A DNA stretch of 64,000 nucleotides from Thozetella sp. PMI_491. Its lineage: Eukaryota > Ascomycota > Sordariomycetes > Chaetosphaeriales > Chaetosphaeriaceae. Below the pieces are notes generated by a model. It saw nothing but the letters and a program-made list of their open reading frames with translations. It was not told the origin of the DNA and searched no databases. A program made the translations under genes and the position numbers. Every line of letters starts with the position of its first letter. The first letter of the stretch is position 1. This document shows, one piece after another, positions 785 to 23,049 of the stretch. The stretch lies in NCBI GenBank assembly GCA_021432635.1, contig MU270015.1, positions 1,523,360 through 1,587,359 of the forward strand, in the 5' to 3' direction.

Positions 785-3700
785 CTACCCGCCGGCTACT
801 GCCACATTGTCATTCGGTTTGGGCGGCGACGGCACATTGACCAGAGGCGCTGCTAACTGGAGAAAGCCCTCTACAAATGTGTAGGGGGCTGGGTCAAGGC
901 GCAGCTTACCGTCTTCGTTACTAACCTCCAGGGCATTGTAGTGCGTGGTGAGGTCCACAGGGGCTGCTGCAGCTGAAACGCCATTATTTGGAGGGCTGAG
1001 AGGCGGTGTAGGAGCGACTGCGTAGGGCTGTAACCATTGCCAGAGGCCCCTTTGTCCCGCGATAGGTAGGGATATTGGAGCGACAGAATTATTTGTGGAC
1101 GTGTTGGACTGCGCTTGCATCCAAGTGCTGGGCGTAAGCGGGCTGGTGCTATCCCAGAGCTTGGGGACGTCCTTCGTGAGGAGAATAGGGCCCATTGTAA
1201 AGAAGGCAGCTATGGGAATTATGTGGTTAGCATTTATGCCGACTTTCAGTAATGCGACGAGCAAGAAGGGCAAGAGGGCAGCATACTCATGTTCTTCATA
1301 GCCTGTTGCATGGTCCACGCCGGCAGCTGAAGGCTCGCAATGGGCAAGATGCCACTATATACATGAACTGGAGTGTATGGGTCGATGAGCACTGTCTTCG
1401 TGGTCATCTGCGCAATACTGGCCTCGATAAAGCCAGTGCCGGCCGTATAAGCAGCCGGGTCAGTGAAGAAGGGATAAAGCCTGGGAAAGTTGTCTGGCGC
1501 GATCTCCTTGCGTACACCATCATCCTTGTCGGCAGGAAAGTAGGTGTAAATGCTGCCGAAGGGGTTCTGAGCATCACCTGTCCTTTGGTCGGTAGCATCC
1601 CAGTAAGCTACGACGCCGTCGAAGGACCGGTCGGCCTTTCGATTTAGCGTTAGAGATGAACCCTTTACCGAGTAACCAAGAGGAGGCAGGAGGACAAAGA
1701 CCTGTAAGGACACTCACATCACCCATCTTGACTGGGAATGGATAATTCGACAGCTGTTTCATTGCATCCGTGCGAAGAGGGTCAACGGTAGCCTTATCCG
1801 GAACCGCCAAGGGCGACGGCATAGTGGACTGCTTCCACCACGCCGGCTGGGCAAGCTCCAGACTCAAGCCCACATTGGTTAATGCAAGAGGTTTGCCGAC
1901 AATTGCATTGGCGTACTGGGCGTAGTCACTTGGGGGGAATGGCATACTTGAGATGGCTCGCCTGATGAGGTCCCATAGGGCATGGAAGTACGCTCTGCCG
2001 GCTTCACCGCCAGCCGTCATCTGCTTGATCAGAGCATCGAGCTGAGGTTTGATATACTTCCCTGGATCGGCAGGGGGTTCGAATGGGAGGAAGCTGTTAG
2101 ACTGTATGATGCCTTTCGGGCCGCCGTACTCCAGCGCCGTGTAAAAGATGCCCTCCCCGTTGAAGAACTGCAGGGAGGAGTCGGCATAGTTGACAATAAC
2201 CCATCCGAATATGGGGTTCTCCCAATCACCGCGAATGCTCCATGTCGTTCTGGGATCCCCGTGACCAGATTGTGGTTCTACGAAGCTGAGATTGATCCTT
2301 GCTTCCTGGTTAATGGCCGGTGTCAGCTGGATAAACGGCGTCATGGGGTACCCCGACTTGGTGGCCAGGTCATGAGTCTGCGCTGGCGTATAAACTGTAT
2401 TGAGTGTTTTTCCATCTGACAGGAGACTGGGGAGCAACTGTTCCGAGAGGCATGGGTGAATAAAGTCCGGCGTAGCAGTAGGGTCGACTACCCGCGGCGT
2501 GCGACCCATTGTCTGCTTGGGGAAAGGGTAGCAGATAGCCTGTCCAAATTTGTCCACTATAGTCAGTTTGGTGATAGCTAGACAGATATCTGTTAGTAAC
2601 AGCGATCCAAGAGGGTGCTGTGGATGTACACTCACCGAATTGCCCATGCTGCACGCCCTTGAATGGGTTGGAGTTGACATTCTCGAAGTCTGTCAGTGTG
2701 CCGTACGGCGTTCGTCCTGTCTGGTCACCCATGAGAACAAAATCGTTATCCTCTATACTTAGTGCTTTAGCCACAGTCCTCGTAGCCGCTGTCATAGGAA
2801 TGGGATTTTGTCCCTGTGGCCGCACGTTGGGTTTGACGTGCTGCCCATTTGCCATGGTCAGAAGTGCGTCCGTCAACCCTGTGAGCTGACCACTGATAAA
2901 CTTGAGCTTCTTCACCCCGGTCTTCAGTGCATTCTTTTGGGCGTCCGTCTGTAGGTCGTCCGGTAGATCACCGGGCAGCGCAGCTCCTAGTACTTGGGAG
3001 ACCACGGCGTCGAGAACAAATATCGGCTGCGGAAGCACCAGCATACGCCCAGAGATGTGTCGTTGGTCACTGAGTGGGCCGGTTTTCGCATCAAGTTTGG
3101 ATAGGTCATTGGGGTTTATGTAGGTGACTTGGGTATGATTGCTATCGCTAAGAGCCGTCTGCGTCAAGGCGATTTGCCACTGGTCGTCGGCGATGTGATA
3201 GTAGACGCCTTCCCATTCGACAAACTGGGGCTGGAAAGGCTGTCTATCCCAAATTTTGTGCCCGTGTAATGCTAGAGCATCTTGATATCCTCCCGAGGCT
3301 TCTGTTAAGAGCTTGGAAACGGTGTCGTTGAGGTCGGAAGGAAGCCGAGACAGGACGTTCGCGAGGGTCCCTTTCGTCAAGGAAGTATCACCGTGGCCCG
3401 GACCAGAGATCTGGTGGACGAACCGTGTTGGCGTGCTGCCGCTTAAGAATTCGGGGTCCCAGCCCGCATCTATGCCAGCCAAGCAGAGCGATGGGTCGGT
3501 TCGCTTGTAGAATGCTCCGTTAGACACTTTCTTGAGGGGCATTTGCGCCTTTGTTGGATCTGCGCCGCCGGTTATCTTGTCCATGTTGCCCTGCAGAGTC
3601 GCTTGCTCTGCTTGGAGAGCGATAGCCTCATTTCGCAGAAGGGGGATCCGGCTTGTGTAGAGCGGCATGCGGTTGGCATCATTAGTCGGATCGGAGACGT

Positions 3701-5258
3701 ATTTGAAGAACTCGGAGAAGAGCGCCCAGCGCAGTTGATCCAGTTTACGGTCGGCCGCATCCCAAGCCGACTGGTACTCGTTGAGACTGGCCAAGACAAC
3801 TTTTTCCGAGTCTGAAGGAATAGCAGGCGGTTCATTGTCACCCTTTTGCTTATTGTAATGCCAGACAAAACCACCACCACTGCGCTGGAAGTTGTGCGAA
3901 TAAATCAGGTCAGCCGCTTTCACACGCTGGTCGTAGTCGTCTTCCGTGGCATAGAGCAGCTCTTGAATTTGCATTAACGTCTTTGCTGTCTGTACAGTAT
4001 CATCATCGCCGAACATGGCTGACTCAAATGAGTCGTCGCCTTTGTGTGCCTGAAAGAAGGCTAGAACTGCATCCAAGGGTGTCGTGCCTACAGAGACGGG
4101 TTCCATGTCAAGATTAGGACTGAAGTAGTTCGCGTAGTCGTCGGCAGGTGTCTTGGGCTTAATGGCAGCCTTTCCGGAAGTGAAAGCGACTGAGTATCGT
4201 GCAGCATGGCAGATGAGTCGCGTGGCACCGCCGTCGTTGTTGCCAGATACCGTCTGCGTGTCAGTGGTGTGCTTGTCATCTTTGCCATCAGAATTGGTCG
4301 GCGCAGCACAGAAAAGGTGACTTAAGCGGGAACGAATGGAAGCAGGTGCGTTTGGGTTGGCAACAACGCCGAGCGGGTCATCTCCCATGGACGAGTGCCA
4401 CCCGGCCACAAAGTAATCGCAAGTCGCCGTGTCCAAGTAAAGAGGGTTGTTAAACGAGTCTGTGCCATATTGAAAATTGTCCTTGGTTGAGAATACATTG
4501 GGATTATGGATAGCGTAGTCGGCAAAGACGGGATTGGAGCTGTTCATGACCGTCAAAGGAACGCGGTCCACCTTTTGTTCGCCGTTCCAAGCTGCTAGAG
4601 TCGTCCGGAGGCCGATGTAGTTTTCAGCCTGGTTGTTAAGCAGATCCGCGTTGTTCGTAGCGTCATTGCTGTAGGCTACGAATGGTGTCACGTCGGTCTC
4701 GATGTCGACAGAAGAGTCAAGAGTCTCAATTTTGCGCAGCCGATCCGACTCAATGACCCATGCCGTCGCCCGGTCCGGGTTCGCCGTCTTTGGCGTCCAG
4801 TCCCTAAGGATACGGACTATGAGCCATCGATTGGGCACTAGCGGGAACTTTGGGTTCGACTTTGTCGTTGCCGCGCTGCCCGGGTCTGTGGAAGAAGCTT
4901 GACTGGCCGCTGAGCGGTAGGCCCGTGGTATGGTCCAATGCAGATAGACTCCGAGGCGTGAGCGGTCAATGGTTGTGAATTGAGTCGGATCTACATTCGG
5001 GCTGAGGGTGTTGAGAGGGATGAAGTCACTACTGAACGTCTTAGAGATGCGCGGGTTCGCAAGTGATGGCTGTGAGTTGTGTAAGTCGACGTGCGGTAAG
5101 ATGTCATGTTGGATCAGGTTGTTCTGTAACCGCAGGCTAACATAATTGGGCATGGTGATGGGCGCTATCCGGGAGCCGCCTGAATCACATACAGCCTCGT
5201 TGAGCACAAACGCATCGAGGTTGATGGGAAGACAAACATCCTCAAGTGTAGATGCCAT
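785..5258 (-). CDS. Giant bacterial-like protein A (1440 aa, function unknown)
   Basis: Four exons: 5258-2636, 2577-1718, 1701-1287 and 1209-785. Together they give 4323 nt, or 1440 aa, with no internal stop. The ATG at 5258 is the first in frame. Introns at 2635-2578 and 1286-1210 have good GT/AG ends and CTAAC branch points; the third gap is only 16 nt (see its own entry). Near residues 110-150 the sequence reads GVYLHWTIPRAYRS and then PLVPNRWLIVRI. Further on come FVAGWHSSMGDDPL, FGWVIVNYADSSL, PVHVYSGILPI and, at the C-terminus, FVEGFLQL. From memory these correspond, in order, to blocks of large uncharacterised bacterial proteins, so the full length appears preserved. No signal peptide, membrane segment or catalytic motif is evident. 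Giant protein B lies 3.7 kb away in divergent orientation and is also bacterial-like, which suggests a joint role. Function is not known. Confidence 0.8.
1702..1717 (-). other. 16-nt pseudo-intron with intact splice ends in giant gene A
   Basis: On the minus strand the segment is GTGAGTGTCCTTACAG, a consensus donor joined almost directly to a consensus acceptor. Removing it joins residues 1161 (Asp) and 1162 (Val), and the frame then continues through VFVLLPPLGYSV into the conserved C-terminal part. Leaving it in shifts the frame and ends translation at 1574 (about 1208 aa). Sixteen nucleotides is too short for normal spliceosomal removal. It may be an intron that lost its interior, an assembly collapse, or a true frameshift. 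Confidence 0.7.
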
Positions 5259-5961
5259 AGGCAACTGGTGATGGCTTCCCTAATCGTGCTTGCAAGTTAC
5301 GAAGACGATGGCCCAAGGCTATGGTGTGAGATGTTCGCGTTTGCTAGACGAAACCGTTAATCGTGCCCCAGGTGCTGAGTATGAACAAGGTGTGAGCTTC
5401 TTCGGAGCTGGTGGAGAAGTAGTTAGGTAGCGCTTAGTGGCAGGACTAGTTCCCAATCGCATTGATACAAAGCCCTGTAGGTAATCAACAAAAGACCTTC
5501 AGTAAAGCTGGTTAGAGCGGCGCGGATCGAAAAAGCAGATGCTTAAGCCGCCTGTTGTTCTGGGCCAGTCCAATGCCAAGACTACTGAAATCCTGCAGCG
5601 TAAGCCGAAACATGGGGTCAAACCAGAAGAGAATGTGGCGCATCTGGTGCTAGCTGAGGCGGTCCTAAATTGAGCTGAGCTCTAGAGTGCGGGGCAGCAG
5701 TGATGTACTGTACCTCGACACTCATGGCCGAAATTACCACTTTCCTGTTCAATACCATCCTTGCTGGCCATTTTTGCCTAGACGCATATTATGGTTAAGC
5801 AGAAGCTTTCCTTCCTCCCACCACTAGACAGGGTTCAAGCAAGAGGTTAGGTATTGATGGTATCACAGGCCACTACTATACTTTCTCTGTCAGCAGGCTT
5901 CCGGTGAGCGCGCACAGCAGCGCGCCTTGCCCGCCCTGCGGGTTAGTCCATCTTCTTACCT
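5259..5961. other. Non-coding upstream region of giant gene A
   Basis: No coding ORF with domain content was found. This is the presumed promoter of the minus-strand giant gene that starts at 5258. I see no clear TATA box or repeat. Confidence 0.4.
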
Positions 5962-6672
5962 TTGGCAACACCTCAAAGTATCCCCTTGGCAGCAGGAGTA
6001 ACGCTCTTAGCAAAGATACAAATCGCTCGGATCCAGGCATTACCGCTCGAGGAGCAGGCACCGCACTCTGCGGTCCTCCATGACAAGATCTTGGAGAACT
6101 TCAGGGCGATTGCGGCAGACAGTACGTCTATGTCAGTAAGCAACTATCTAGTCCTGCTTGCGGGATTCGACACCAACTCTGCAGAAGCGCGGCGCGATAT
6201 ATACAATAAAGGCTGTGCAAGGCCCGTGGACTTCGTTCCGATCGTATCACACCGCGGCCACGACTAATATTTGCTTCTAAGCGAGGAAGGGCTCCCACAG
6301 TCGAAGAATCTGGGGTTACTCTGGTGGATGCGATGCTTACCGTCCCCGACTTGGTGGATGCGTACCGAACTACATAGATGCTGGGCCACTCGCCCGGCGG
6401 ACTGCTTTTCGAATTTGGCATGAGCTTGGGGATCATTTCCCATGTACTACAGGGTCATTTGACAGCAGAGCAACCGTAGATCTCGACAAGCCAGAATCAA
6501 CAAGCTTTTTGTCGCCCTCAACGCCGTCAACAAAAGGATCTGGGCAACTGTCGACTGCCATTCCTTCACCCGCAAAGAAAATTATTATACAGACGACGAT
6601 TCGGATTTGGGCAGGTTGTCTGGGGATGACTGGTATCAGATAGGGAAAACAAAGATCGACCGATCAGCGTAG
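5962..6672 (+). pseudogene. Possible decayed or unresolved gene of unknown family
   Basis: Three protein-like stretches follow one another. One lies at 5962-6267 (contains ILENFRAIAADSTSM and ARRDIYNKG). A second, in the -1 frame, spans about 6255-6378 (APTVEESGVTLVDAML). A third, back in the first frame, runs to a stop at 6672 (ARINKLFVALNAVNKRIW, then SGDDWYQIGKTKID). There is no ATG for the first block. An intron at 6244-6465 would join blocks one and three in phase but discard the second. I do not recognise the family. A degenerate gene seems more likely than an intact one, but only expression data could tell. Confidence 0.3.
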
Positions 6673-7084
6673 AAGGTCGAGACTGCAGTCGTCGACATCA
6701 TTATAGTTGGTGGCCCATGGACGAAAGGTGCTCCCATGGGCCATAAGATGCCGGCTAGAAGGGAAAGGCTGAGTAGAGAGACCCATCATCAGTGATAAAG
6801 CTGAAGCCATAGTATCTCCGTAGCTAATACAACTTGAATGAAATATTCCCCCTGTACCTCTGATGTCAGGGAGTATTCTTCTGTAGACACACATGTGGTT
6901 CGCAGGTTGACTGTCCAATCTCACCCTGGCAGTACAGAAGTATACATTTGAGACACCCACGCTGAAGAAGAGTACAACTTTTCAGCCACAAACCAAATAT
7001 CTTTCCAGGGCTCTCTTCTTTCTCAAGATTGCATTAACATATGTATTTATATGTACTCCGCTTTCGATCTCCTAGCACCTAACC
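6673..7084. other. Non-coding stretch downstream of the tetraspan gene
   Basis: I see no supported gene. It lies between the possible decayed gene and the 3' end of the minus-strand membrane-protein gene. Confidence 0.35.
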
Positions 7085-8050
7085 CTACCAAAAGCGTCCT
7101 GGGATTCCCCAGCTCGACCCAGCTATCCCTGCTGCAAGGAGCGCCGTCGTCCATGCAATGGTAGCATACGTATTGAGGGCCTTTCCGATAACCCAGTCAT
7201 GCCCGACAAAGAAATTTTCTCCAGGCATGGTCTGGAAGATCCATGCTCCCGCTCCCGTCGGTGAGGCGAGGACCGTCAAACCAAGCACGCCGAAGAACTG
7301 CGCCAACAGTTGAAGCAAGACCCCAATAACCAAGAAGAGCACCCTCGCCCGGAATACGTAGGCAGCAGGACCAAGATGCGACAAGGGCGGGTAAGGACGA
7401 TGGTGGTGGCCGTGCTGGCGGACAGTTTTCCCTCCGCGAAAAAACTTTCCAGCTGTCTTGTCCTCCCCACCTGTCTCTTCTGCCCTCGGTTCCGTGGCAC
7501 CTTCGGGCTCACTATCCCTCCAAGTCTGACGAACCATCGGGACGGCAAAGAGGCCGAGACTAAGTATAAGGCCTAATGTTAGGAATACAGATGCCGCTAT
7601 TTGGAGGTTGCCTGCATAGTGAACTGTGTCATTCGCTGGTCAGCTAAGTCTAAAGCATGGCTTTAATGCACTCTTGCCTTGCTGGCATTCCTGATCGCCG
7701 CCGAGCAAACCTTCCGCCCTATTGGGGTAATTCCAGGTCCCGTTGAACTCGGCAGGTGAGCGGCAGCTCGTAGCGTTGTAGCCATAGGGCGGGTAGAACT
7801 GGCACGACGGAATGTGACAGGTGCCGTTTTCGTAAACAATCGGTATACCGCACTTGTAGAAAGGCGAACGCGATGCAGTGCAAACTGGTGTTATGTCGAA
7901 CTGGCCGTTGCCAGAGGCCGCGCCATTGCTGGCTTGGTAGTATGATTGCGTTGACCACTCCGGAGATGTGGTGGCAAGCAGGACGAAGGTTGTTGAGACA
8001 ATAGACAGGACAAGGGCAGCAAACGAGGAGACTATGGTAATGTAGCGCAT
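7085..8050 (-). CDS. Tetraspan membrane protein with cysteine-containing loop (305 aa)
   Basis: Exons are 8050-7672 and 7623-7085 (918 nt, 305 aa). The intron runs 7671-7624, with donor GTGCAT and acceptor ACACAG. Residues about 5-30 form a first hydrophobic segment (YITIVSSFAALVLSIVST), followed by a WSTQSYYQ loop with six cysteines and several NxT sites. A second segment lies around residues 130-155, then a charged His-rich hydrophilic loop (GGEDKTAGKFFRGGK), then two more hydrophobic segments (VLFLVIGVLLQLLAQFFG and IAWTTALLAAGIAG). This topology recalls fungal SUR7/PalI- or claudin-like tetraspans, but I see no diagnostic motif. It sits between the two giant genes, and its 5' end faces giant gene B across 0.9 kb. 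Partnership with them is only a positional inference. Confidence 0.7.
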
Positions 8051-8967
8051 GACGGGCAATTGGCGACTGCTCCCTCTTCTCTGTCCCTAGACTCTACGAG
8101 GCGAGTGTGCAGTGAGTAGTGGGGGACCAGTATTTGTCCGGTGCGAGAAGGATGGTGCAACGAAACAATCTCACTACGCAGACGACAACTAGGGAGGGGA
8201 ATAAAAAGCAAGCCGGCCTCTTGCATGTTCGGGCAAGCTAAGGGAGACAAGATTAGGCTTGTAGGCATATGTCGAGGCACCTCGATAACAAAATGGACCG
8301 CGGAGCTGGGGTGGCACTGAGTAGGACAATTGAGACATTCCGCTATGGACATCTTCTTGTTCTTCCTCCGGGTACGGCTTCCCATGGGAAAAGCGAGCTG
8401 TCGATGCAACGACGTCATTGCAGCCTCAGCTTGAAAGCTATACGCCACTGTCTCATTTGAGTCCAATTCGGTATTAGAAGCTTAGGGTAGGGGTGGTTAT
8501 AGAGCCACCCCATTGCATCAAAGCAACGTGGGCACAGTAAGGCTTACCTTGACGGCTACTGTGCTTGCGGTACCCCAACAGCGCCTCTAATTGGGTGGAT
8601 CCCGGAGCTCTCGACAAGCTTAGAGCAGGTTCCTTCAAGCTTGCCTGATATGTCTCGCGGCAACACGACGTTGCGAAGAGCGAAGGTTTCCTTTTTTTTT
8701 TTATTCCGCCGTCCAAAACGAAGAGAGCGTGGTGGGCTCAGCTAGCCACAGAGAGGCTCTATCGACGCCGTGCAAGCCCGCTGTCGGTCATGAAAGCCGA
8801 GTCCCCGAATGCTGTGGTATCACCTCCCTGGCAAACGACACTCATACTTGCTTTGAGCCCCGGGAAGCATTGACTGTAGCTAGTCGCTTGGCTGCTAGCT
8901 CACGCTCGTGAATCTACAACACTCTGCTTGACCAAAACCACCGACGTTGAAACCCAAGCGGGCAAAA
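8051..8967. promoter_or_regulatory. Divergent intergenic region between tetraspan gene and giant gene B
   Basis: This 0.9-kb stretch separates two divergently transcribed starts (8050 minus, 8968 plus), so it likely holds both promoters. A run of eleven T lies at 8692-8702. The ORFs here look random and carry no domain. Confidence 0.45.
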
Positions 8968-11900
8968 ATGGCGAGGTCTCTCGTGCAGAGCAAGATCGCT
9001 AAGGAGATCCAGGATGCTTCGGGGGCCGCCTCTGAGAAGGATGACCTCCAGCCGGGCCACATGAGGTTGTATAGCTACTATAGCCCTAGCTTGTGTGCGC
9101 ATCACCGTCACCGTCTGATCCGAAGGTTTCATGTAGGGACTCACTAACAAACACCCAGCGGCGGGCCTATATGGCATCGAGGTCCGGCAGACGGTCACGG
9201 CCATTGCCGGTGATGATCTGCCGGAGAAGGCGCAAACGCTTCCTATTATGAACCAAACGGTGGCTAAACCAGGGACGACACCCGTCATCGTTCCGCAGGA
9301 GTTCAACGTAGTTGCCCCGCAATTCTCGCTAGATTCCAAACTCATCAACACCTACTACCCGCCTGACGGCCACCAAGATGAGGGCCGTGTACTACCTCAC
9401 ATTGTCTTTAATGACCCCCATGTACCCTGGTTCCGCGAAGCGGGTACCCTGAACTGGGAGACGCAGCCTGTTGATGGACCACAGGAGCGGCGGGGCCGCA
9501 ACTTCGTGCCTTGGCTTGCCTTAATGGTGTTTGAGCCGGACGAGCTCAAAGTTGAGCAGCCAGCCGCTGCGCTCTTGAAACTCGATCAGATTCCATCTTA
9601 CAACTCGGCGAGTCTGCCAGCCAATGGCTCCTTTTCCATGACAGTTGGCCAATATCTTTCCCTCATCAGCTCTCGCCCCTACTACGAGGAAGGTTATCAA
9701 GGTGACGCAGCAGCAACCTTGACGGCTCTCAAAAACTCTACAGACAAGCTGAATGTCATTTTCCCAACCAAGTCGCAGCTGGCCGATGTATTCGCTGGCC
9801 CTGGCAGCAACCTGGACCCGTTGAAGGCGCAAAAGTACTTAGCTCACGTCCGACACATAAACACTATCGGGTTTCCAGATGCCGGCGTCGAAGAAGAGGG
9901 CTTCTTCTCAGTTGTTGTATCGTCAATGACGGGGAACCAGAAGGAGCTTATTCCGTCGACTCACGTCGTTCATCTTGTATCCATCGAGCATTTCGACACA
10001 ACCTTTACAGCGAAGCCGGATCCGAAAAGCACTCCGCCCGTTCTAGGATCGACTTGGTTCTATCCCGACGACGTGAACTCGGACCGCATCGGCATTGTCT
10101 CGCTTTTCTCTTGGACCTACACCTGCATCCCTGACGCTATCAGCTTTTACGAGACAATGCAGGTTATCGGCGCAACAGCACAACCGTTACGGCCTCCGCA
10201 GAAGACGCTCGACAATCTGTGGGCAACTGCAAAGAATCCCAATCCGCAAAACCCTGCAGCGGCGCCGATCGCACAGAAACTCTATGACCGCCTGAACTCT
10301 GGATACACAATTGCCCGTTGGAGAACAGCGACGGGAGAGGAGACTACCGCATTCAACCGGGGTCCGCTAGTGCCGATGAACGTCCAAGAGGTCCCTGGGC
10401 CAGCGGCTGGAGCCTCGGCGGCGAAACCCTGGCCTGGGCTGTCCATGACTGGCAAGGATTATACCGTGTTTGACAAGTCAATCGGCATGATGGACACTAC
10501 GTATTCTGGCGCATGGTCACTGGGCAAGCTGATGGCGATCTCTGACTCGGCCTTTAACCAAGCGTTGATGCGCTTCCGCAGCTCCATCTGGGAAGCTGCC
10601 GCGTCATACACCCGCATGCAGGCGAACAATGTTACAGCGGCGGGATCGGTGCTTTCGAATGTGAAGCGGGCCTTCCTTGCAGCACGTGCTGTTACCCCTG
10701 AGAAGTTCAGCGGGCCCGTCATCCGCATAAACAAGCCCGTCATGCAGGGGGTCACCACGTCGATGGACGATCCAAGTATAACCGAGGAGTTCCAAGAGGC
10801 CATCCAGGCCAAGGTGGCTACTTTTGCTAGCATAGGCAAGGGCACAACTGCTCCTTTGTACAATGGATTTGATGGTGCGCCGGGGAACAACAGTGACTGG
10901 GAAATTCTACTCAATTGGGTACATGACATCATGTACCTTGGCACTATCCCTTCCCACGTCCTTTTTCCAGAGCCATCCCATCTGCAGAGTCACAACGACA
11001 GCCCAATCATGCCAGGCCAGCCAACCTACCATCCTGAGGCCTTGCGGTGGTTCCATATTGACCATGCCTGGATCGACTGTTTCCTAGACGGCGCCCTTAG
11101 CTGTGCCAACCACCTCGAGCCTGAGTATGACTTCACAAGACTGTGTGTCAAAGACATCTTCAACAAGTTTCTGTCCACGCCGATCGGCAACACTAGCATT
11201 CTTCCCCCAGTACCCAGGTACGGATTCATCCTCAGGTCTGCCGTGGTCAAATCGACACCGGATATACGGCTGGTTGTCACCTGCTGGAAGTTGCAGAAGG
11301 CAGCGGATGGCACACCATCGTGGGTGCAGGACCCAGACCGCGACCCCTTGGTTCGTCACACCAAGATGGATGATTTTACCATTCTCAGCCTTGTCGATTG
11401 CTCTCCAGAAGAGATTCACACTGTAACACTAGCGCAGCCACCCCACCAGCAACGGTTCTCCATTGGGTGCGAGCCATCTTATGACCCAAAGACGGGTCTG
11501 GTTACAGCTGTAGCTGCCGATATCAAACTGAAAGAGCTGTTCACCGATGCTAGTCAAGTGCCTGTACCCACCCCTCAGGACCCAGAAGTTCCTGTATGGA
11601 GCGAGCTGCCCGAGGAGCAACAGATCCCCATGTCGCAGCAGACCCTATTCTATAACGATGCAACGCGTTGCATCGATGCCGCCGCTATTGCCACGGCGGC
11701 TAACAGCACACTGAACTCTTGGGCTAGTGACCCTACCTATCCAACTAAGCCGTATGATGACGCCGTAGCCAATTCCACTGTCTTCGGACTCGAGATGAAT
11801 GACCCTTCTTGTAAGTTGACAGTCAGCTTTTTAGCCTGCTTTCGAGAAACTAAGACCCGCCAGACCAGCTGCGTTTCACCAACCCAGCTCCAAAGACATT

Positions 11901-12978
11901 CGAGCCATTCCCGACCTGGACCAGAAAGATATATACCGGTGCGGCGCCGACGCCCCCTCCTTCCGCAATAACGGTTAATGCGGCCTCAAAGACGCTAGCC
12001 CGCGGTCCAATTGTCGCCAATATCTTAAGCAAGACTGGGACTGTTTCCATAGAAGCAATACCTAGTGTTAAACGTCAACGTCCCGCGCAACAAGGTCCGT
12101 CTCTATATCAAGCTATCCAGCTGGCACCTCCAGATCCGACCCGGCCGACCGCCCTTCCACCAAGGGTCATGCTCAACTCCATGAGGGCAGTCCCTCGCGC
12201 CTTACCAGCTGCTCACATGGCACTTGCACGGCCGCCTACGCCGGGCCCTTTCAATCCTTGGGCGCCGATCGGGACGCCGCAGTTCGAGCTCCTTGTCCAC
12301 CCTGACTACCGACCAGCACCCCCACGGCCAATCCACGACCCAAATAACAACGTAGCAAACGACGTTTTCTCCCCCTTTGACTACATTCCAACCCAGACGA
12401 CCTCACTCTTCGATCTTGTCTTTTCGATTCGGCGCAGAGTCAATGACAATACGGACCTCCAGTTACAAAGCATCACCATCGAGATCCCTGTCTCGGACGG
12501 TTCGGACAAGAAAAATGCGGATGGCTACATTCGCGAGCCGCTCCTCGAAGCCGGAGACTACTCTGGTACGGGCGTCCACATGTGCTCCAACCCGCGATTT
12601 GTCCCCGCCATCTTTAGTGGAACAGCAACTCCGATCGGATCGGACAAGTGGGACAACAAGCCCGTGGTGGGCATTCGGCTCGTGCCGCGCACCGGCCAGG
12701 CAACCGGTACGCTGCCGCTTGTGGCGGACCTCAAGTCCAAGGACGCGGGTTTCAGGCTGTCGGAGCCGAGGATCAAGCCAATTGTCGACCACTCGACATC
12801 AGCGATGATTGCAGCTCTCAACAGCCAGGGTAACCCAACCAATGTGCAGAAGGTTATTGGGAGGTGCATGATTCGCATGTCGGAGCAGTATGGCCCAACA
12901 CATACAGATACAGTGAGCTGGTGCACTGTGTTAAAGGCTGACACCGGGGATCACGATCCCTGGGGGAATCAGATCTAA
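8968..12978 (+). CDS. Giant bacterial-like protein B (1297 aa, function unknown)
   Basis: Exons are 8968-9094, 9159-11810 and 11864-12978 (3894 nt, 1297 aa). The ATG lies in a good context (CAAAAATGGC). Donor GTGCGC at 9095 was chosen over two better-looking ones at 9066 and 9069 because only it keeps phase; it yields SPSLSAGLYGIEVRQTV. The second intron (GTAAGT...CAG, 53 nt) restores the frame into LRFTNPAPKTFEPF. Blocks such as VVAPQFSLDS, YYPPDGHQDEGRVLPHIV, FVPWLALMVFE, YLAHVRHINT and FFSVVVSSMTGN match, from memory, the order of blocks in unnamed bacterial proteins of about 1,200 residues. The C-terminus adds a hydrophilic region rich in Pro. There is no signal peptide or transmembrane segment. 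Function is unknown; the pairing with giant protein A is the main clue. Confidence 0.8.
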
Positions 12979-13188: not shown

Positions 13189-15000
13189 CTATCGACGTCC
13201 TCCTACTTCTAGTGTCGGTTGTAATAGCTTCCGAAGTGCATCATCTTCGCTCTGGTGCACTTCGGCCTCGTGAAAAATGTAATCGTATGTTTCGGCGCTG
13301 TGTCTGAGTTCGGGGGTCGCGTCGAGCCGAGTACTCTTCTTCTTACCAGACTTCACGTCCAGGGCGGTTACATTGAGCTGGTAGGCCCAGTCCAGTTCGA
13401 AGGAAATTTCGATCGTTGCCCTGCCACGAGGAGCGGAGTGAATTTCCAGTTCGAATTGACCGAGGAGGAAATTGTGCCTGGCCAACAGTCTCTCCCCTTC
13501 ATACACTTTGACTACAACTGTTGTCTGGTTGTCGACGGCTGTTGTAAATCTTAAAGTCTTTCTTATCGGAATCAGAGTGTTTCTTTTGATGACTTTCTCC
13601 ACGACACCTGTTACCGTTTCAATCCCAAGACTGAATGGGGTACCGTACATGATAGGGTAGTTGCAGCCACTGCAGCCACTTTCATAGTCCTCCACAATCA
13701 CCTGGGCTTGGATGGCAGCGCCGATTACAACGGCATCGGCCGGCTCTGCGACTTTGCTGGCCTTGATTCCCAAATATTGCTCGAGGAGTGGTCGAATCTC
13801 TGGGATCAAGCTCGAGCTGCCGATAATAACAAGTTCTTGAACTTGGTCCTTGGAAATTTTGGCATCCTTCAGCGCGGACTCCAACACAGCGAGGCTATCG
13901 TCAAATATATCGGTCACCATAGTCCGCGAGCTTATTCCAAAAGCGGATTCGATCATGTTCATCGCTCCAACTGCGTGTTCTCTCGGCGATAGCCTTTCAT
14001 TGCGGTTGTATGGCGCTATCCCTATATCGTGGATGTTTGAGAGGCACTCCAACACACCAACATCGGATGATAAGATGTCAATATTAAGAGTCTCGTCGAG
14101 ACCGTACACAAGAATCAGCCGCTCATCTTGAAAAATGTCGAGTCCATGGGCGATCGCTGCTGCAGTTCCCTCGTTTATGAGTCCGAGAACCTCTATTTTT
14201 GCAATCTCGCCAGCCTTCTTGACGGCAACTCGCTGGTTGTCGTTGAAGGAAAACGGTACGGTGATAACACCTTCTACCACTTTTTTTCCGGTATAAGCTC
14301 CCGCGACCTCCTTAATTCGAAGAAGCATCATGCCGCTCAGCTCTTCAGCTGTGTATTCCTTGAGCTGGCCGGAGACGGTAACTTGAATGATCGGATGATC
14401 TGCCTTGGAGATAACTTTGTATGGCAAGTGGTCGATGTCGGCTTGAATTTCGGAAAACTTTCGTCCTAGCAGCTGCCTTTGGGTCAGTTAGTGTTGTATC
14501 CCGTCATTTTGAGGTTAGGTGGAGACTTAAGCACCTACCGAATACCAAATACTGTATTTCTCGGATCCACCTGAGCGTAGAGCCTAGCTTCCTCCCCGAA
14601 AAGTGTGCCATTTTCAGTAAAGGCGATGTACGATGGGCTAAACTTGCTTGCTGTAACAGGACGCATTTATCGTTTAGCAAGTCACGACGGCGAAGGCGTG
14701 ACGGGTGATATACGAACTGTATGCCGGGGGCAGAACCACGATCTTTCCATGGCGCATAACGGCGGCCCGATTATGCATCGCGCCCAGGTCCTATAGATTG
14801 CGTTTGAGAAGGTATTCTAGAGGCAGAAAGCCTTTGCAGGATCTTCATACAATTCCCACGTAGCAAGTATCCTCTTGTACATCTCTTGGGGCAGGTGCAC
14901 ATAGTGCAACCAGGCATATCAAGATGCTGACCGTGCATGTTGTTAATAAGAGAGAAGGATGAAGATCTCTTCTCCCACCATCTCTTCCCCCCATCGCCAT
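13189..15000 (-). CDS. Divergent BiP-like HSP70 with degenerate ATP-binding motifs (540 aa)
   Basis: Four exons (15000-14851, 14790-14718, 14650-14539, 14476-13189) sum to 1623 nt, or 540 aa. The N-terminus has an Arg-rich start and then a hydrophobic stretch (SILICLVALCAPAP), consistent with a signal peptide or anchor to the ER. HSP70 landmarks follow in order: VGIDLGAMHNR at 48-58, PSYIAFTENGTLFGEEA, DPRNTVFGIRQLLGRKF, NEGTAAAIAHGLD at 213-225, LVIIGSSSLIP near 328-338, and a substrate-domain block YGTPFSLGIET. Key nucleotide residues are altered: canonical DLGTT is DLGAM, and canonical DLGGGTFD is replaced by YGLDETLNID (about 236-245). Part of subdomain IIB looks shortened, and the helical lid and an HDEL-type tail are absent. 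The chaperone fold is probably kept while ATPase activity is doubtful. The second intron uses a weak donor (GTTCGT). Confidence 0.75.
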
Positions 15001-17040
15001 AGTGTCCGATGCGCGAGTGTATCCCGTTGGGTAACGAGGTAGAAGCTGAGTGAGGTGGCGTAGACTCTTGGGGTTTGTTCACAGGGAATACTCGAGAGCT
15101 ACCAGCCAGGGGGTACAGAGTACAGTACGAATGGTGGCAATTGTCAAAATGATGTATTTTGAGAAATAGATGCGGATTGAGAAGATGACAAGGGCAATCT
15201 AATATACATGCATTTTATTCTTATTTAATCGGCCGGATCCGGAGCAGTCGCAGTGATCTGTCATCGCCATCTGTCGTTGGGCTATCGACTGATACCCTTT
15301 CGTGTTTTCCCATACGTGGCTTTTACACGGTCGTGAGTCACGCGCAGGGATGCACCACCGCTCCAATCAGGTATCTAATTCCAGTTTTTCACAGCTAGGG
15401 GACTGCTGAGCCGGAAATCGCTTCTCTCAAGACTTAAAATCGACCGAAGGATTTCCAATTAGAGTAACGAGGATAATGTATAAGGCATAGCCGTAGTAGA
15501 GTCGTAGTAGAGTCGTAAGTAGTCAGAAATGGGTCAGCCTAGAGGTGGTACATTTATAACACATGCAGGCCCGAAGTTCGCCGCCTTACCCCGCATCTTA
15601 CGGCTAGATTCTTGTGAGGTCAGGCTATACCAGCATGCTAGCATACTAACTATAATTGCCGAGGGTCGGAGCTTTTGTAGAATCGAAGCCCCTTTCCTCT
15701 TTACTGTGTAGAAGGTAAGAAAACTATAGGGCGGGGGAAATGGTAGGATAACCCCTACTAAAATGTATATGGGAGATTGTCTGATCGCTCAACTTCCATG
15801 GCGGGGATGGTCAGCATGCCCAGTATTAAGTATTGAGATATTTCCAACAAGGCACGCATGAATGCGAACTTGGGCAATCACCTTGGCAGCGCCCTGCGGT
15901 ATAGTTAGTCGGAAGTCGGGTGGATTCACGATTGTAGAAGAGCCCCGGCCAGATATTCCTCAGTCCGAATAGCCTAGGAGCAATAATTGCATCAAAAGGT
16001 TCGAGTTGATGGTGCCATAAAAGAGGCCCTATCAAAAAAGCTTGGTTTCCACGCTTATATCAATTCGACTCCGAAATATCTACTTTTTCAAGGGGATGAT
16101 GAGAAAGTAGTGTAGGAATAGGCAGTTTGATGATTCAGTAGGGTTAGTTTATACGCATCTGTAGCCTGCTATTCCAATAATGCTCGGATCTGCATCTTTA
16201 CTCTGCTCCAATGACTTCTAATAAGCCCATATCATACCTAGCTGCCATAGATCATGGGTTATACTTCCTTAGCTACACTCGAGGACCTAACAGGTTCAAT
16301 TGACTTAGCTACATAGTCGACCGAAAGCAGATAGCATTTCTCTAATTACATCCTATGAATCCGAGATCCTGTTACTAGCTAGTGCGGCGCCGCACATGCG
16401 CTATAGCGACTAGATTATGTGTATTAGACGCGACTGTGGTCTTGGCGCCCTTGCTTGGGAGGGTATCAATGCCTATTCGGGGTCTGGGACGAGTTATTTT
16501 TTTAATGGCTCGCTTTTCTTTTGAGCAGGTGCTTAGTCGGAGCCCTACCGGCCCCCGCCCGTATCAGCAAGAAGCATTGGGGTGCCAAAGATCGAATCCA
16601 CGCTAGCCTCTTGCATTATCATTGGGAGCATTCTCCTTCCAGAATAATACGACCCATTGCAACTCTGCCCACCGCTCACCTTCCCCTTGCAGATTTGACC
16701 AAAATCGCTAACTATGAGGAGATAAAAATAGTATTAGATGCCAAAAAGAACTTGCCGATAACACCAAGATGTTGGATCTACCAGCAACACTTGTAACTTG
16801 GCCCCAGTTCAAGGCGTCGGACAGGCATGGCTTCTTGGCACGATAGGTATTTCAGCTTGCCAGCCCTGCGAGTCGGTGCATATAAATAGTTCTTCGTAGC
16901 CGCAAAGATTGACGAGGACTCTGTGCCTTGGCTAGGTAGACTCCAACAACGCGGGCTATTCTACATTCGGCCAGGGTCCCATCCGGCCTCCTTCACCTCA
17001 CTCCAAGGGAATTTATACTAGAGAATTAGCAGATATCGGA
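15001..17040. other. Two-kilobase AT-richer non-coding region
   Basis: No ORF here shows domain content. The sequence is AT-richer than its surroundings, with many TA-containing words and short duplicated words such as GTCGTAGTAGAGTCGTA near 15496. It could be old, mutated repeat DNA, but no terminal repeats or transposase remains are visible. Confidence 0.4.
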
Positions 17041-20000
17041 ATGCGGTCGCTGCCATCACTCCTACTTCCGGTCTTGTGCTTCCGGCCCCGCTTAGCCTCA
17101 GCCTGGGAAACTGACGACCGTGCCTTTATTATCACGCTCTCCTCAGACCCCGTGGCGGCTTCTCTTGGTGGAATTTTCCTTCGCTCGGCTGACCATCATG
17201 AGTTCTTCCACCAGCGGGCCGCTGAAGCATCGATCTCATATACAGTACAGCATGAATTCGATAGCGTGGGTCCATGGCAAGGGATTTCTGTTCGTGCATC
17301 CGGGGATGGGTCCGTTCAAGAGTTTAGAGACCGTCTTGGGGCCTTAGAGGGCGTGGTGGCAGTTACGCCAGTCAAGAGACTCTCAAGAGCACCAGGCCTA
17401 CACAAAGACGAGTTCGCCGATGGCGGCGTACAGCCACGCAGCCTCGTTGGTCGTGCAACCAACCCCACCACGCCTATCAATATCAACAAGACGTTCGCCC
17501 CATACGCCAATGCAAATGGCAATCTTCAATCAACCCTTGAAATGGGTGGTGTCGACAAGCTCCATGCGCTAGGGATAAAGGGAAAGGGAATGAAGATTGG
17601 AATCGTCGACACCGGTATTGACTACAGGCATCCGGCACTTGGTGGTGGTTTCGGCCCAGGATTCAAAGTTGCCGGAGGAGGAGCACTCATCAATCAGACG
17701 ACAGAGCCATATGTCTGGGACCCAGATCCTCTTCAGACATGCTTGGTTGCTGGCCACGGCACTCATGTAGCTGGTAAGCTTCATTTTCTTCAAGTGATAC
17801 GATGCCTTGTTTGGTCTCCTATGTTCATCTCAAGCGGAATAAGGGACGAACGAGCGCCACTGAATGTTGAAAATATCTCATGGGTAGAGATTCCACATGT
17901 CGTCTCTTGGTCTGCGCGTATTCGTGTGTGTGGTCTCTTCACGCCCACTCTGGTTCGAGATCTGATTTCGTTTAAAACCCGTCTTCTTCCCCATTTCTTA
18001 CCTTAATTACCGCTCCAAGTTAACGAGCTTTCAGGTATCATCGGCATGGATCCTCTTCCTTCCGGAGAGGGATTCAACATTTCTGGCGTCGCCCCGGAAG
18101 CCGAGCTATACATGTACAAGATCTTTGATTGCAATCAACAGGGCGGAACGACCGACCAGATGATTGCCGCCCTGTTAAAAGCTCAGCAGGACAGAGTAGA
18201 TATCGTGAGCATGTCACTGAGCGAGGGCGTGAATGGCGAAATCGACGAATCTTTCAACGGTGTGGATCCCATGATTGGAGTTATCCAGCAACTTCATGAT
18301 GCAGGCATTGCCGTGGTGATTGCCAATGGAAATGCTGGCGGATCGAGTGCCTACGCAAAGGTTGTTTACAAAATGGACTACCCAGCAGACGCACCAGGGG
18401 CCTTTTCCATTGGATCCATTACCAATAAAGACTTCCCCCTCGTATACGCCGCGACGGACTCCTATGGATCCCAGATACCCTACGCGTCACTCTGGCCCAT
18501 GGGTCTCACTGGCGACGTCGATGTCTTTTTCATGGAAAGCGATGCCTGCTCAACCTCGAGCTGGACTGACGCGGTCGACCAGCTGGAAGGACTGGGCATG
18601 TTAAATACCACCGTCATCGCCTATTACGTCAATGATGGATGCCTGTCACCCGCAGCAAGGCCCTGCTGCAACCAAGCCAATACGGTCCCTTTGTGGATGA
18701 TGGCGCTATCTCAGGGAAGCAGCAATGTCGCCTACGCCGACTACCAGACCGACTCCGCTGGATGGTTTGGCAACGCTCAGCAAGTCAGTGTTCATTCCGA
18801 CGACACCCCGACGTTCATAAACAACTATAACGCGGCGGGAGGATTTGGAAAATACAAACTTAACTTCGACAATCAAAGCTTCGCGTCCACCCCGCAACTA
18901 GTCGGTGGCCTTGTTGACTACTACACCTCTGGAGGCCCCGTATATCGGACGTATGACATGAAACCAGATATATCGGCTCCTGGGGGGGTCATCCTATCGA
19001 CATTCCCGTTGTGGACACCACTCGGCAACTACACAGTCTTATCTGGCACCTCCATGGCAACCCCCTATGCTAGCGGCTGCTACGCCCTCATCAAGTCCCA
19101 ATTTCCCGAAATGTCCGTTGATGAAATTGTCGCACTGCTTCAAACCACTGCCAAGCCTGTGGTCTGGGAATACAACACCGCCATGCTGTCGGGCACGTAT
19201 CAGCAAGGGGCGGGGCTGATTAATGTATACCAAGCATATGTCTCTAAGTCAAAGTCGGTCGTGACTCCTGGAGAGCTCCTCATCACGGATAACTCCAGAA
19301 CAGTCTTTGGGAAGGCAAACATTACCATCGAGAACAAATCGAATGCTACCAAGACATATTGGCTGTCGCACAAACCCGCTGCTTTGGCCCCTTCTGTTCC
19401 AACTGGAATTGGCGGTCCATTTCCGGAGCTTGCTCAACTTCCGGTCTATGCATCCGTGGACTTTCCGGTCTCCAAGATCCAGGTTTCTGCAGGTGACACC
19501 ACGACAATCACATTCGACGTGATCCCCCCCGAAGGTGCGGTACCTGCACAGGTGCCTATCATGGGGGGGTATATTCAAGTGAATTCCTGCGGCGAGAAGT
19601 ATAGCGTACCATATTGCGGCCCAGCGTACTCGCTTTATAATGCGAAGTATCTGGTAGCGATACCTAATGTGCTCCCCTATATCCGATTCACCTTTGCCAA
19701 TGGTACTGAGGCAGACGATTGGGACATTGCTACTGTTGATTCGACCACGAAATATTATGCTCCTTTTACCATCCAACAGTCAACGCTTTTCTTGCGAGCT
19801 TTCCTTTTGCCCGCCAATACCACGATTGATCCGACATATCTTGGCTTTAACTCATCTATAACACACGACTACGTGTCCTCTACTACAGCACCTCCAGAAA
19901 CAGTTTTTGGGGTGGCTTCTTATGGTCTACTTTCCAACCAACCAAACTTGCAGGGTGGTGGCGCTTCGTACTATGTACAAGGATCCGGCGTTGCCACAAC

Positions 20001-20145
20001 CCTGACTGACGGCACGTCGTTCCAGCCAGGCCCAGGAGACTACCGATGGTTAGTCGCGGTCACGCGATGGGGAGGGGACCCAGATGTATTCGAAGATAAT
20101 GAGACGTGGCTCTCGGCGGTGGTTCGGTTTGCAGCGGACGTCTAG
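17041..20145 (+). CDS. Secreted subtilisin-like serine protease, Vpr-like (S8, 947 aa)
   Basis: Exons are 17041-17773 and 18035-20145 (2844 nt, 947 aa), joined by a rather long 261-nt intron (GTAAGC...TTTCAG). The join completes the active-site His block GHGTHVAG. The order is a hydrophobic signal segment (residues 1-21), an inhibitor-like propeptide to about 140, then the peptidase S8 domain with catalytic Asp190 in IVDTGID, His239 in GHGTHVAG and Ser584 in SGTSMATPY. A long insert between His and Ser (about 380-500, cysteine-bearing) sits where Vpr-type enzymes carry a PA domain. The C-terminal part resembles Fn3-like domains. All three catalytic residues are present. It is predicted to degrade extracellular protein. 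A decayed copy of its tail lies 0.4 kb downstream. Confidence 0.88.
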
Positions 20146-20578
20146 AGAGGTAGTTTGATGCAGACAAAGGTATGGAAGGCTTTCAGGGAAACTTATATAT
20201 AAATCAACCGACCCCCTACGAGGGAACTTGGGTTGTCTTCACACGAAGCGCGATACAATTTCGACAGTGTGTGATACTTGACTCTCATTATTTTATTCCA
20301 TTGGACGTTACAGTGTGCTTTAACCTCGGTCACCTTACCTAACACTTGGGGAGGGTTCGCCGGTATGCCACGCCTAAACCGGAGGCTTACGCTGTAACGC
20401 TGAACCTCTAGAGCCCCATGGATATCCATCTCAACCCAACCCCTAGCTGCAAGAGCCACACGTGTAATGACTCTATAGATAGGTATACCGGCACTTCTTA
20501 ATAAAGGAGAATTAAGCTTTATCACACACAATTTACTCATACTTGGTTAGAAAGAAGTTGTATATACTCGTCCCGATA

Positions 20579-20699
20579 GTTCTTATGGTCTACTTTCCAA
20601 CCAAGCAGACTTGCAGGGCGGTGGCGCTTCGTACTACATACAAGGATCCGGCATTGCCACAGCGCTGACCGACGGCACGTCGTTCTAGCCAGGAGACTA
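20579..20699 (+). pseudogene. Decayed partial copy of the subtilase C-terminus
   Basis: About 120 bases closely resemble 19917-20043 of the protease, sharing TATGGTCTACTTTCCAACCA, GGCGCTTCGTACTA and ACGGCACGTCGTTC. The copy carries scattered transitions, including one that turns the Gln codon after TCGTTC into TAG, and it lacks six bases of the GGCCCA type. No upstream protease sequence accompanies it. It is a fragment left from a tandem duplication, not an exon of the neighbouring gene. Confidence 0.75.
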
Positions 20700-23049
20700 G
20701 TGGTTTTACCCCGAGCGTAGGCCAATTAACCTTCTGGCCTGAGACTATAAGCTGAAGGCTCTGCTATGTGAGTCCGCTTAGAGACGTTAGGCCTTTTTGA
20801 AGGGTCGGCTATGGGTTGGTCGTAACAATTTGAATGTAACGGCTTACCCTCTAAACCCTACTTTACACGTGTAACACTCTCCCCTAAAGCCAATCAGGCG
20901 AAGCAAGCGATGGTATCAATGCTTATTTTATCCTAGATACAGAGATTGATACTGGAGGTGCCTCCGAATCGCTCCCGAGACACCAGCGATCTGGCTACTT
21001 AGGCACGTAGCTCCCTATACTGAGTAGTGGCCGCCCCACTAACCATCCTTACACGACGTAAGATCCACGCCTACTTCCTGTAAAGCCGTGCTCTTGACCG
21101 CTCGTGGTCACGCCTTAACAATAAAACTGTGGCAATATTTCGGATTATATAGATTCGGGGAATATAGAGAACCGATTGGACCTAAGGAATATTACTGATC
21201 GTTTGCTTTATATATAAACGCTTGAAATTCCTCTTTTAGCTATTAGAACTAGTTATAGCTCCTGAATAATGCGAGAATGCTTTTGCCTTGCTTTTATAAC
21301 ATATACTCAGCAGGATCGTCTCTGTCTATTATACCTAGTATTAAAACTATAACTGTTGGTTCAATACTAGGATCCCATTCCTGGGGTAAAACAAAGGGCT
21401 AAAACTGGTTCATACTGTTGGTCTGGTCTTCTCTGTGTATCTGGTGGAAAGCAGTCTAGGAGCTCCAGAGAGCTCTTAAATAGCTTCCATCTTGATCACG
21501 TGGTTGCTCCCCACGTGGCTCCCATGGAGCTTCCAGCTCCCATATCCACAGCGAGCGAGCGCTGCGAATCTACTGTTCCAACATCTACCTTTTTATTTAA
21601 CATCATTCTGTTTCTACATGTTGTCATTTTATGTTGTCACTTTTAGCTTCGGCATGTTCTAGCCAAAATGGGGGTATATAATTCGCGCCAGGCAGCAAGG
21701 CGAAGAAACTAGCAGCTGCATTGCAAGAGGATCTCACGCCTTCCTCGTAAATGCGCATAACCCCAGAAAGGACGGTGTGGTTAGCGGTTGACCAGTCGAG
21801 TCTATTTCCAGTTCTGTGCCACCGCCGCCTCAACACGGACTTAGTTGACCACGAGTATTTTCTCGCAGCCCCAATCCTCGAATCTCTCCATGTCAGCGGC
21901 ACAGATCATCTGAGTAAGCCCTATGCCTCAGTGGCGTACCCCGACTTTTAGCTATCCTATCTGAGGCAGTATAACCATGGGTAGAGTCTTGTACTTCGGC
22001 GTTGGAAGCCTGACGTTCGGAGACAACGCGTTCTGGAATGTCTCACGAGCGGCGCGGTGACTGCAGTGGTGTGCATGGATTGAGAATCACGAGCCGGTTG
22101 AGAACCACAGGTTGCAGTTTCGACAACCGACGCTATTATGACTGCCTAAAGGCAAGTCGCCTTGAACTATGTAGGCAGGTAAGGTAGCCGATCATTTTCG
22201 GTAGCGCCGGACCAATCGCGCTTGTTGACCGCAGTCCCCCGACTCACCCCTGGCTTTTCTCCATTGAGGCACATGCGACATCCACAGTCAGAAAGACGAT
22301 TGAAAGAGGAATGATGCGCCCTGCACAACTCGGATTCCACTGGCGGAAGTACTGTGGGCAATGAATTCAGAGCATACATGATCAACAAAGACGAAAAGCC
22401 TGTCCCAGAAGCTTGGCGACGGCAGCCATCAATATAAGAGGTGGTGGGAAGTAGCACATGCCAACCATAGTTATGTGTTAGTTTCGTTCGCTTGGTAAAC
22501 CTGCATCCAGCACGGGCTTGGGATCCCGCTATCCAGCCTGGAGCTCTGCGGCAGATTTCGCCCGCGCCACACGGCAACCGGGTTAGATGGGGGAACAGGT
22601 ATCACAATCACACGGCACATTATTAACAATACCGCCTAGGCTGAACATGATTTGGGGTAACAGAGCTATCGCGCGCCACGAGCTGGCCGGTTGGGTTGCA
22701 ATTTCATATAGAGCTACAGGACGCTAATCGCATATCTGTGGGTCGTCCTCACGAGGTAAGGGCGAGGGTGCACATTCAACCGCAAGAATAGATTGCTTCC
22801 GGCGGCGCTGCCAGCACAACCATTTGTTTCCGTGCGCGATCTCCCCCACATACGTACGCAGAATATCTCGAACAAAAATAGCCCAAGGCTCTCTCGGTCA
22901 TATGTTATTGCACCCGTGCCCACTCGCGGCGTGCAAGACACTCTCCCGGCAAGCGGTAAGTCTTGGGCTAAATCTCTTGTCAGGAGGCATTTTTGCAGCT
23001 CCAAACCGTCACCTTCCCCCAGGCGCATTTGCTGGCCGGAATCCGCAGA
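20700..23049. other. AT-rich non-coding region, possibly old repeat DNA
   Basis: No supportable gene was found. The part at 21120-21440 is markedly AT-rich with many TATA and TAG words, unlike the coding neighbours, and resembles repeat DNA degraded by repeat-induced point mutation. Two CCACGTGG/CACGTGG-like sites lie near 21497-21515. The 22700-23050 part is the presumed promoter of the chitin-binding gene. Confidence 0.4.

Follow-up and report, generated by a model that had tools for sequence, protein, structure and literature searches.

The window is the whole stretch of DNA that was analysed, 64,000 nucleotides of Thozetella sp. PMI_491 (contig C1, positions 1,523,360-1,587,359; source genome, 72.3 Mb). 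It includes two genes encoding giant proteins, A and B, and a gene encoding a tetraspan-like membrane protein, T (Table 1). The labels A, B, T, D, C and X are used throughout. D, DUF6603 protein; C, protein encoded after A in most bacterial loci; X, protein of 262 amino acids (aa) from a paralogous Thozetella locus. The comparisons given below show that A, B and D form a module which, judging from sequences and gene order, is kept in bacteria and fungi.

A first-pass annotation had described two giants of 1440 and 1297 aa in divergent orientation with a tetraspan gene between them. The arrangement is that of the deposited models (A, minus; B, plus; T between), and the size of B is unchanged. 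For A, the open frame supports 1418 aa over the deposited 1405 aa, and not 1440 aa. The deposited model of A (P0001; the first-exon query is 98% identical) has five pieces against four exons in the present model, and splices out an extra small piece (~5030 to 4989). A 16-base intron 2 of A was dropped; homologues fit the 82-base intron of the deposited model. The deposited model of B (P0121, 1297 aa) is 100% identical and has three pieces. Introns with GT..AG borders are found in A, B and T. Contamination, which the same annotation had dismissed, is unlikely because the A/B locus sits on a contig of 3.1 Mb.

Table 1. Coordinates of the features discussed. Positions are those of the window unless a contig or a locus is named.
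Feature	Position	Strand	Description
Gene A	785-5258	minus	Giant protein, ~1418 aa; exons 5258-2636, 2577-1718, 1635-1287, 1209-788; stop 785-787
Relic X	6037-6663	plus	Probable relic; 24% identity, E 1.8e-7, with the 262-aa X of contig C70; internal stops in the aligned frame
Gene T	7085-8050	minus	Tetraspan-like membrane protein, 292 aa (P0251); pieces 8050-7712 and 7624-7088; between A and B
Gene B	8968-12978	plus	Giant protein, 1297 aa; coding ~8968-9093, 9161-11810, 11864-12975, then stop
412-aa frame	13189-14427	minus	Directly past the end of B
Second DUF6603 gene	C116, 19878-21411		D of Thozetella
TcdB/SpvB-like and RHS-repeat genes	L044 (SAR324), 16294-23584	minus	Next to D-B-A-C, near C

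Neighbours of A and B in bacteria

Relatives of A are found on 8 plasmid records by translated search (23-29% identity with the first exon of A; best E 8e-12). A profile of fungal A matches four bacterial A proteins with E values of 8e-57 to 3e-76; on these scores the similarity of bacterial and fungal A is well beyond chance. The agreement with bacterial proteins that had been noticed block by block is borne out for several of the blocks in a Streptomyces relative of A (GVYLQWELP, VPNRWLVVR, VAGWYAQ).

The bacterial A set comprises 84 loci: the best 80 of 241 confirmed stretches (68 genomes) from a scan of species genomes, and 4 plasmid loci. It includes a few near copies; L075 and L093 are identical. 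The hosts are mostly Actinomycetota; Bacillota, Pseudomonadota, Chlorobiota, Bacteroidota and SAR324 are also represented (six phylum-level groups). B precedes A on one strand in all 84 loci. D precedes B in 82 of them, which gives the order D-B-A on one strand; the two loci without D are L006, on a plasmid of Paenibacillus sonchi, and L014, where the contig starts inside B. Spacing is tight, as measured from start codons chosen by rule. D and B overlap in 23 of 82 loci and are separated by 0-50 bases in 34, by 51-200 in 23 and by more in 2; for B and A (n = 84) the corresponding numbers are 26, 21, 33 and 4. In 11 loci, B is split between two neighbouring frames. The first frame ends at residues 406-506 and the second starts at residues 467-513 (numbering of the L044 protein), a region that surrounds a low-confidence loop (461-476) of the B model.

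A second draw was made without A as bait. Evenly sampled genomes of four phyla were searched with the DUF6603 profile at the curated cut-off (27 bits). The genomes over the cut-off number 12/296, 1/299, 9/299 and 9/296, or 26/1185 when 5 bait genomes are removed; one genome (G123) has a single weak match, below the cut-off. Of the 27 non-bait D loci, 17 hold the D type of the module (type 1), and 16 of these 17 have B and A in the fetched stretch. L127 has B only; in L126, A is on the opposite side of D. L152 is a close relative (~95% at the DNA level) of the bait L062, and L144 is close to L145; when L152 and one of the latter two are left out, A and B are found in 14/15 type-1 loci. Among the extra D loci of the bait genomes (n = 5), four have A and B, and the fifth (L119), of a distant type, does not. 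That the bacterial relatives should also be neighbours had been named beforehand as a test, and both draws give this result. The two-gene module across kingdoms that had been proposed is retained as regards the linkage of A and B. It is not retained as a set of two genes only, since D-B-A, usually with C, is the bacterial arrangement, and in Thozetella A and B are accompanied by T and, at a second locus, also by D.

The other 10 D-found loci carry a distant DUF6603 type without A, with a weak B match in 3 of them. In six distant-type loci (L128, L129, L130, L132, L133, L155), a protein of ~930-1180 aa adjoins D, and the profile of these six proteins aligns with B (226 columns; probability, 94; E 1e-7). 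A giant protein, A2 (~1600-1900 aa), is encoded after the B relative. The one A2 scanned has no Pfam match, and profile comparison of A2 with A reveals no detectable link (probability, 1.7). The three-part layout may be older than the A sequence family, because the distant type combines a B relative with a giant third gene unlinked to A. The DUF6603 domain is also found inside frames of ~3230-3520 aa with a long N-terminal part (L120, L125, L147-L151, L154).

Fungal copies, the tetraspan T and descent

A second Thozetella locus, on contig C70, includes A', T', X, B' and a DUF6603 gene within ~22 kb, X lying between T' and B'. The window probably retains a relic of this X, which is intact on C70. 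The searches that were run give totals of 2 A, 2 B, 2 T and 2 D for the genome. D is not present at the window locus; neither A nor B was found in a stretch of 30 kb that surrounds the DUF6603 gene of contig C116. Between the window and C70 copies, the proportion of nonsynonymous differences (pN) is 0.23-0.27 and that of synonymous differences (pS) 0.74-0.75, the synonymous distance (dS) being near saturation (864 codons of A, 809 of B). These values fit purifying selection. Outside the module, the 412-aa frame past the end of B is, judging from a motif, a putative divergent Hsp70.

The lists of fungal and metagenome relatives of A and B include the best 120 proteins each (for A, the best 120 of 222). 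Of the 120 listed A relatives, 37 are assigned to a fungus by name and not one to a bacterium; most of the others are from metagenomes. At least 16 of the 55 A matches on contigs of at least 30 kb share their contig with a B match (equal contig sizes, compared by hand; distances are not implied). A and B have near-consecutive locus tags in two species: H2200_008181 (B) and 008183 (A); Q9209_004484 (A) and 004486 (B). The tag between the former two, H2200_008182, is T.

A search with the T paralogue finds 27 relatives of T, and all named ones are from fungi. On contigs of at least 30 kb, 12 of 16 share a contig size with an A or B match (2 of these are from Thozetella); the other 4 have no listed partner. 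Consecutive locus tags of T and a partner are found in five further pairs (PAC_02605/02606; PAC_18230/18231; ONS95_007360/007361; IFR05_008580/008581; M1813_007948/007949). Many A-bearing fungi among the listed A relatives have no T among the listed T relatives. Because T shares contigs or consecutive tags with A or B, it is counted, from this distribution, as a module member in one branch of fungi and not as a bystander. A crude hydropathy window gives 4, 4, 3, 4 and 2 hydrophobic segments in five T copies, and cysteines of the first loop are conserved in 14 aligned copies. Neither the T paralogue nor the first exon of T has a Pfam family; the match of the second exon (Apelin, E 0.037) is below the cut-off and at chance level.

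The nearest relatives of Thozetella A and B are those of other fungi. The A tree includes 66 chosen proteins (from 36 of the 84 bacterial loci, and 30 of the 120 listed fungal or metagenome proteins); it is rooted at midpoint and carries a long-branch warning. The 30 fungal or metagenome proteins form one clade with full SH-aLRT support and a long stem. The bacterial rows mix phyla: a Paenibacillus and a Chlorobiaceae genome form a pair that lies beside an Azospirillum. Transfer of A among bacteria is suggested by this mixing; the direction and the number of transfers are not settled because the root is a midpoint and branches are long. Of the earlier proposal that the module was acquired or kept across kingdoms, the second part stands, as the module is kept in bacteria and fungi; acquisition by transfer, or its direction, is not settled by the midpoint-rooted A tree. 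The distance matrices of A and B agree, with r 0.83 across 17 fungal or metagenome pairs (matched by equal contig size) and r 0.87 across 29 bacterial pairs. Neither value was reached in any of 2000 permutations; shared ancestry alone contributes to both.

Families, folds and possible function

D alone can be assigned to a named family; for A and B, the searches of Pfam and NCBIfam gave no family and those of the PDB no significant match. The Thozetella D genes (C70, C116) score 339-352 bits with DUF6603, and two bacterial D score 360 and 382. Pfam matches over the cut-off were found neither for the fungal A and B exons nor for two bacterial A and two bacterial B. NCBIfam gives none for the A and B exons, and the sequence search of the PDB none below E 0.1. 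A Hepatitis_core match of A (Pfam, E 0.019, below the cut-off) and coiled-coil PDB profile matches of A (best E 0.15) were taken as chance. Common descent of A and B is not seen (HH probability, 0.1). A viral origin of A was rejected: no phage record is matched by fungal or bacterial A, and no match was confirmed in one scan of viral contigs. BFVD has no match at E 0.001. For 6 A and B proteins, PHROGs gives only one weak match (E 0.01), to a family that states no function; for 7 A, B and D proteins, PADLOC gives only a weak match of Csx24 to one B (E 0.013). No paper on DUF6603, PF20248 or IPR046538 was found in a search of open-licence literature; a description elsewhere or under other names is possible. 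The first-pass annotation had listed two contrary outcomes, a lack of A/B co-occurrence and a known enzyme family for both; neither was seen.

The structure models of A and B are confident and have strand-rich parts and long helices. No significant match was found when they were compared with solved structures, enzymes included; B has weak fold matches to filamin, S-layer and Ig domains, among others. A is inferred to be a scaffold of several domains, one long helical hairpin among its features, B to be two-lobed, and D to combine a conserved core with an N-terminal part that varies. Very probably, A, B and D are subunits of one large complex, because gene order is fixed, spacing is tight, the genes are jointly present in independent draws, the distances agree and B undergoes fission.

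In 73 of the 84 loci, or 73 of the 77 with room for it, one to three copies of C are encoded after A and on its strand. Of the 11 loci without C after A, 7 have less than 500 bases left, L067 has two copies upstream, and L003, L006 and L062 have none. The C consensus has a conserved N-terminal part, LTVxG-like stretches and a variable end; an F5/F8 type C (lectin-type) domain is found in 1 of 9 C proteins scanned. C could be fibre-like by sequence; a likeness to phage tail fibres is assumed here. Hemopexin-like genes are found downstream of A, near C, in four Streptomyces loci (L035, L039, L059, L064).

An assembly with a purely structural role would also have a place for C. According to this alternative, A, B and D form the body of an appendage or coat without cargo, at the surface or outside the cell, and C or T joins it to a target or membrane. 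Strand-rich models with long helices and no match to a solved enzyme agree with it, as do the weak matches of B to filamin, S-layer and Ig domains; C is also the most consistent fourth partner. It is considered unlikely.

Genes just upstream of D were counted in 116 loci, including two re-fetched baits (L121, L122), by similarity to a few query genes. A queried gene lies on the same strand in 30 of them: MBL-type, 16; endonuclease/phosphatase-like, 4; subtilase, 3; hemopexin-like, 3; M91-like, 2; LanM-like, 1; M64-like, 1 (the M64 label is an assumption from a motif). Pfam names over the curated cut-off are MBL (L048, L057), subtilase (L061, L128, L130), hemopexin (L076) and DUF4135 (L082). 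In the SAR324 locus L044, TcdB/SpvB-like and RHS-repeat genes lie beside the module.

Varied hydrolase-like genes upstream of D could alternatively belong to a system of intracellular conflict or immunity, in which D-B-A would be a sensing scaffold that turns on the linked hydrolase, much like bacterial defence systems of several components, fungi keeping it for self/non-self recognition. The patchy spread (26/1185 genomes), the presence on plasmids and the few hydrophobic stretches in A and B agree with such a role. Against it, PADLOC offers only the weak Csx24 match, Pfam shows no NTPase domain in those A, B, C and D that were scanned, and the varied C tips and the cysteine-bearing loop of T suggest an outward-facing role. 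This alternative is rather unlikely.

Handling of lipids or of the envelope is very unlikely: here D would form a groove or barrel of hydrophobic character, and A and B would act as bridges. The many aromatic, strand-like stretches of the D core (judged by eye), the hydrophobic stretch found in many D and the membrane protein T speak for it; the Pfam scan shows no lipid-transfer domain, and the module is found in Gram-positive and Gram-negative bacteria and in fungi.

The best explanation overall, with a probability of roughly 0.38, is a toxin-complex-like or tailocin-like assembly in bacteria which is membrane-tethered in T-bearing fungi. That the bacterial complex works like a toxin complex or a tailocin-like particle is itself held tentatively; such a particle is favoured because of C and of the recurring hydrolase-like genes. 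D, B and A would assemble into one particle in bacteria. C would be carried by the particle as adhesive fibres with varied tips, and the hydrolase encoded just upstream of D in some loci would be its cargo. In the fungi that have T, this protein would hold the complex at a membrane as a tether, and the machine would act at the surface of the fungal cell itself.

Several results weigh against a toxin-complex-like or tailocin-like assembly. None of the queried upstream genes is found in 86 of the 116 loci; the EEP, M91 and other MBL names that were tested are below the curated cut-off, and L071 has no MBL match. The TcdB/SpvB-like neighbour is found in 1 of 116 loci (L044). Scans of A, B and D proteins revealed no SpvB, TcdB(-mid) or RHS domain; such domains are present only in neighbouring genes of L044. 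The fibre-like character of C is derived from a consensus, not from a structure. A weak test (single-protein query, no positive control) did not reveal C in the genome of Thozetella. As regards secretion, 6/84 A, 8/84 B and 52/82 D have a hydrophobic stretch according to a crude hydropathy window. The distant-type D loci described above, 10 of 27, have no A.

That these giant proteins stay together in fungi and in six bacterial phylum-level groups implies that the machine is real. Naming the set gives anonymous genes of fungi and soil bacteria a shared context, and its function is testable in Streptomyces. A cross-kingdom class of nanomachines built on D-B-A, with fibres and enzyme cargo used by bacteria against other cells and with giants refitted by fungi with a tetraspan anchor, is a doubtful proposition at present. 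If it is true that fungi rebuilt a bacterial device with their own membrane anchor, this would be a rare multi-subunit machine that crossed kingdoms and was rewired.

Comparison with known systems

D is far above the cut-off of DUF6603 (PF20248), whereas the family entry is silent on A, B, C and T and on function. T may resemble claudin/SUR7-like tetraspans in its 3-4 hydrophobic segments (4 of 5 copies, crude window) and in the cysteines of its first loop. It differs from them in having no Pfam match and in that its 27 relatives are mostly on A/B contigs where contig size allows this to be judged.

C may resemble phage tail fibres and tailocin tips, given its conserved N-terminal region, its LTVxG-like stretches and the variation at its ends. 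The A and B proteins scanned match no PHROG beyond the weak match mentioned above, and A is not found in phage records.

Toxin complexes (Tc; TcA/TcB/TcC) differ from the module in gene order and domain make-up; A, B and D have no SpvB, TcdB or RHS domain. The listed Foldseek matches of A and B include no TcA; a pentameric channel like that of TcA is possible all the same. There is a published precedent for a Tc complex in a fungus (PMC13236867). Tc complexes and the module have in common giant partners encoded in one operon and, as would be the case here, variable enzymatic and adhesive parts, and one SAR324 locus has a TcdB/SpvB-like gene beside the module.
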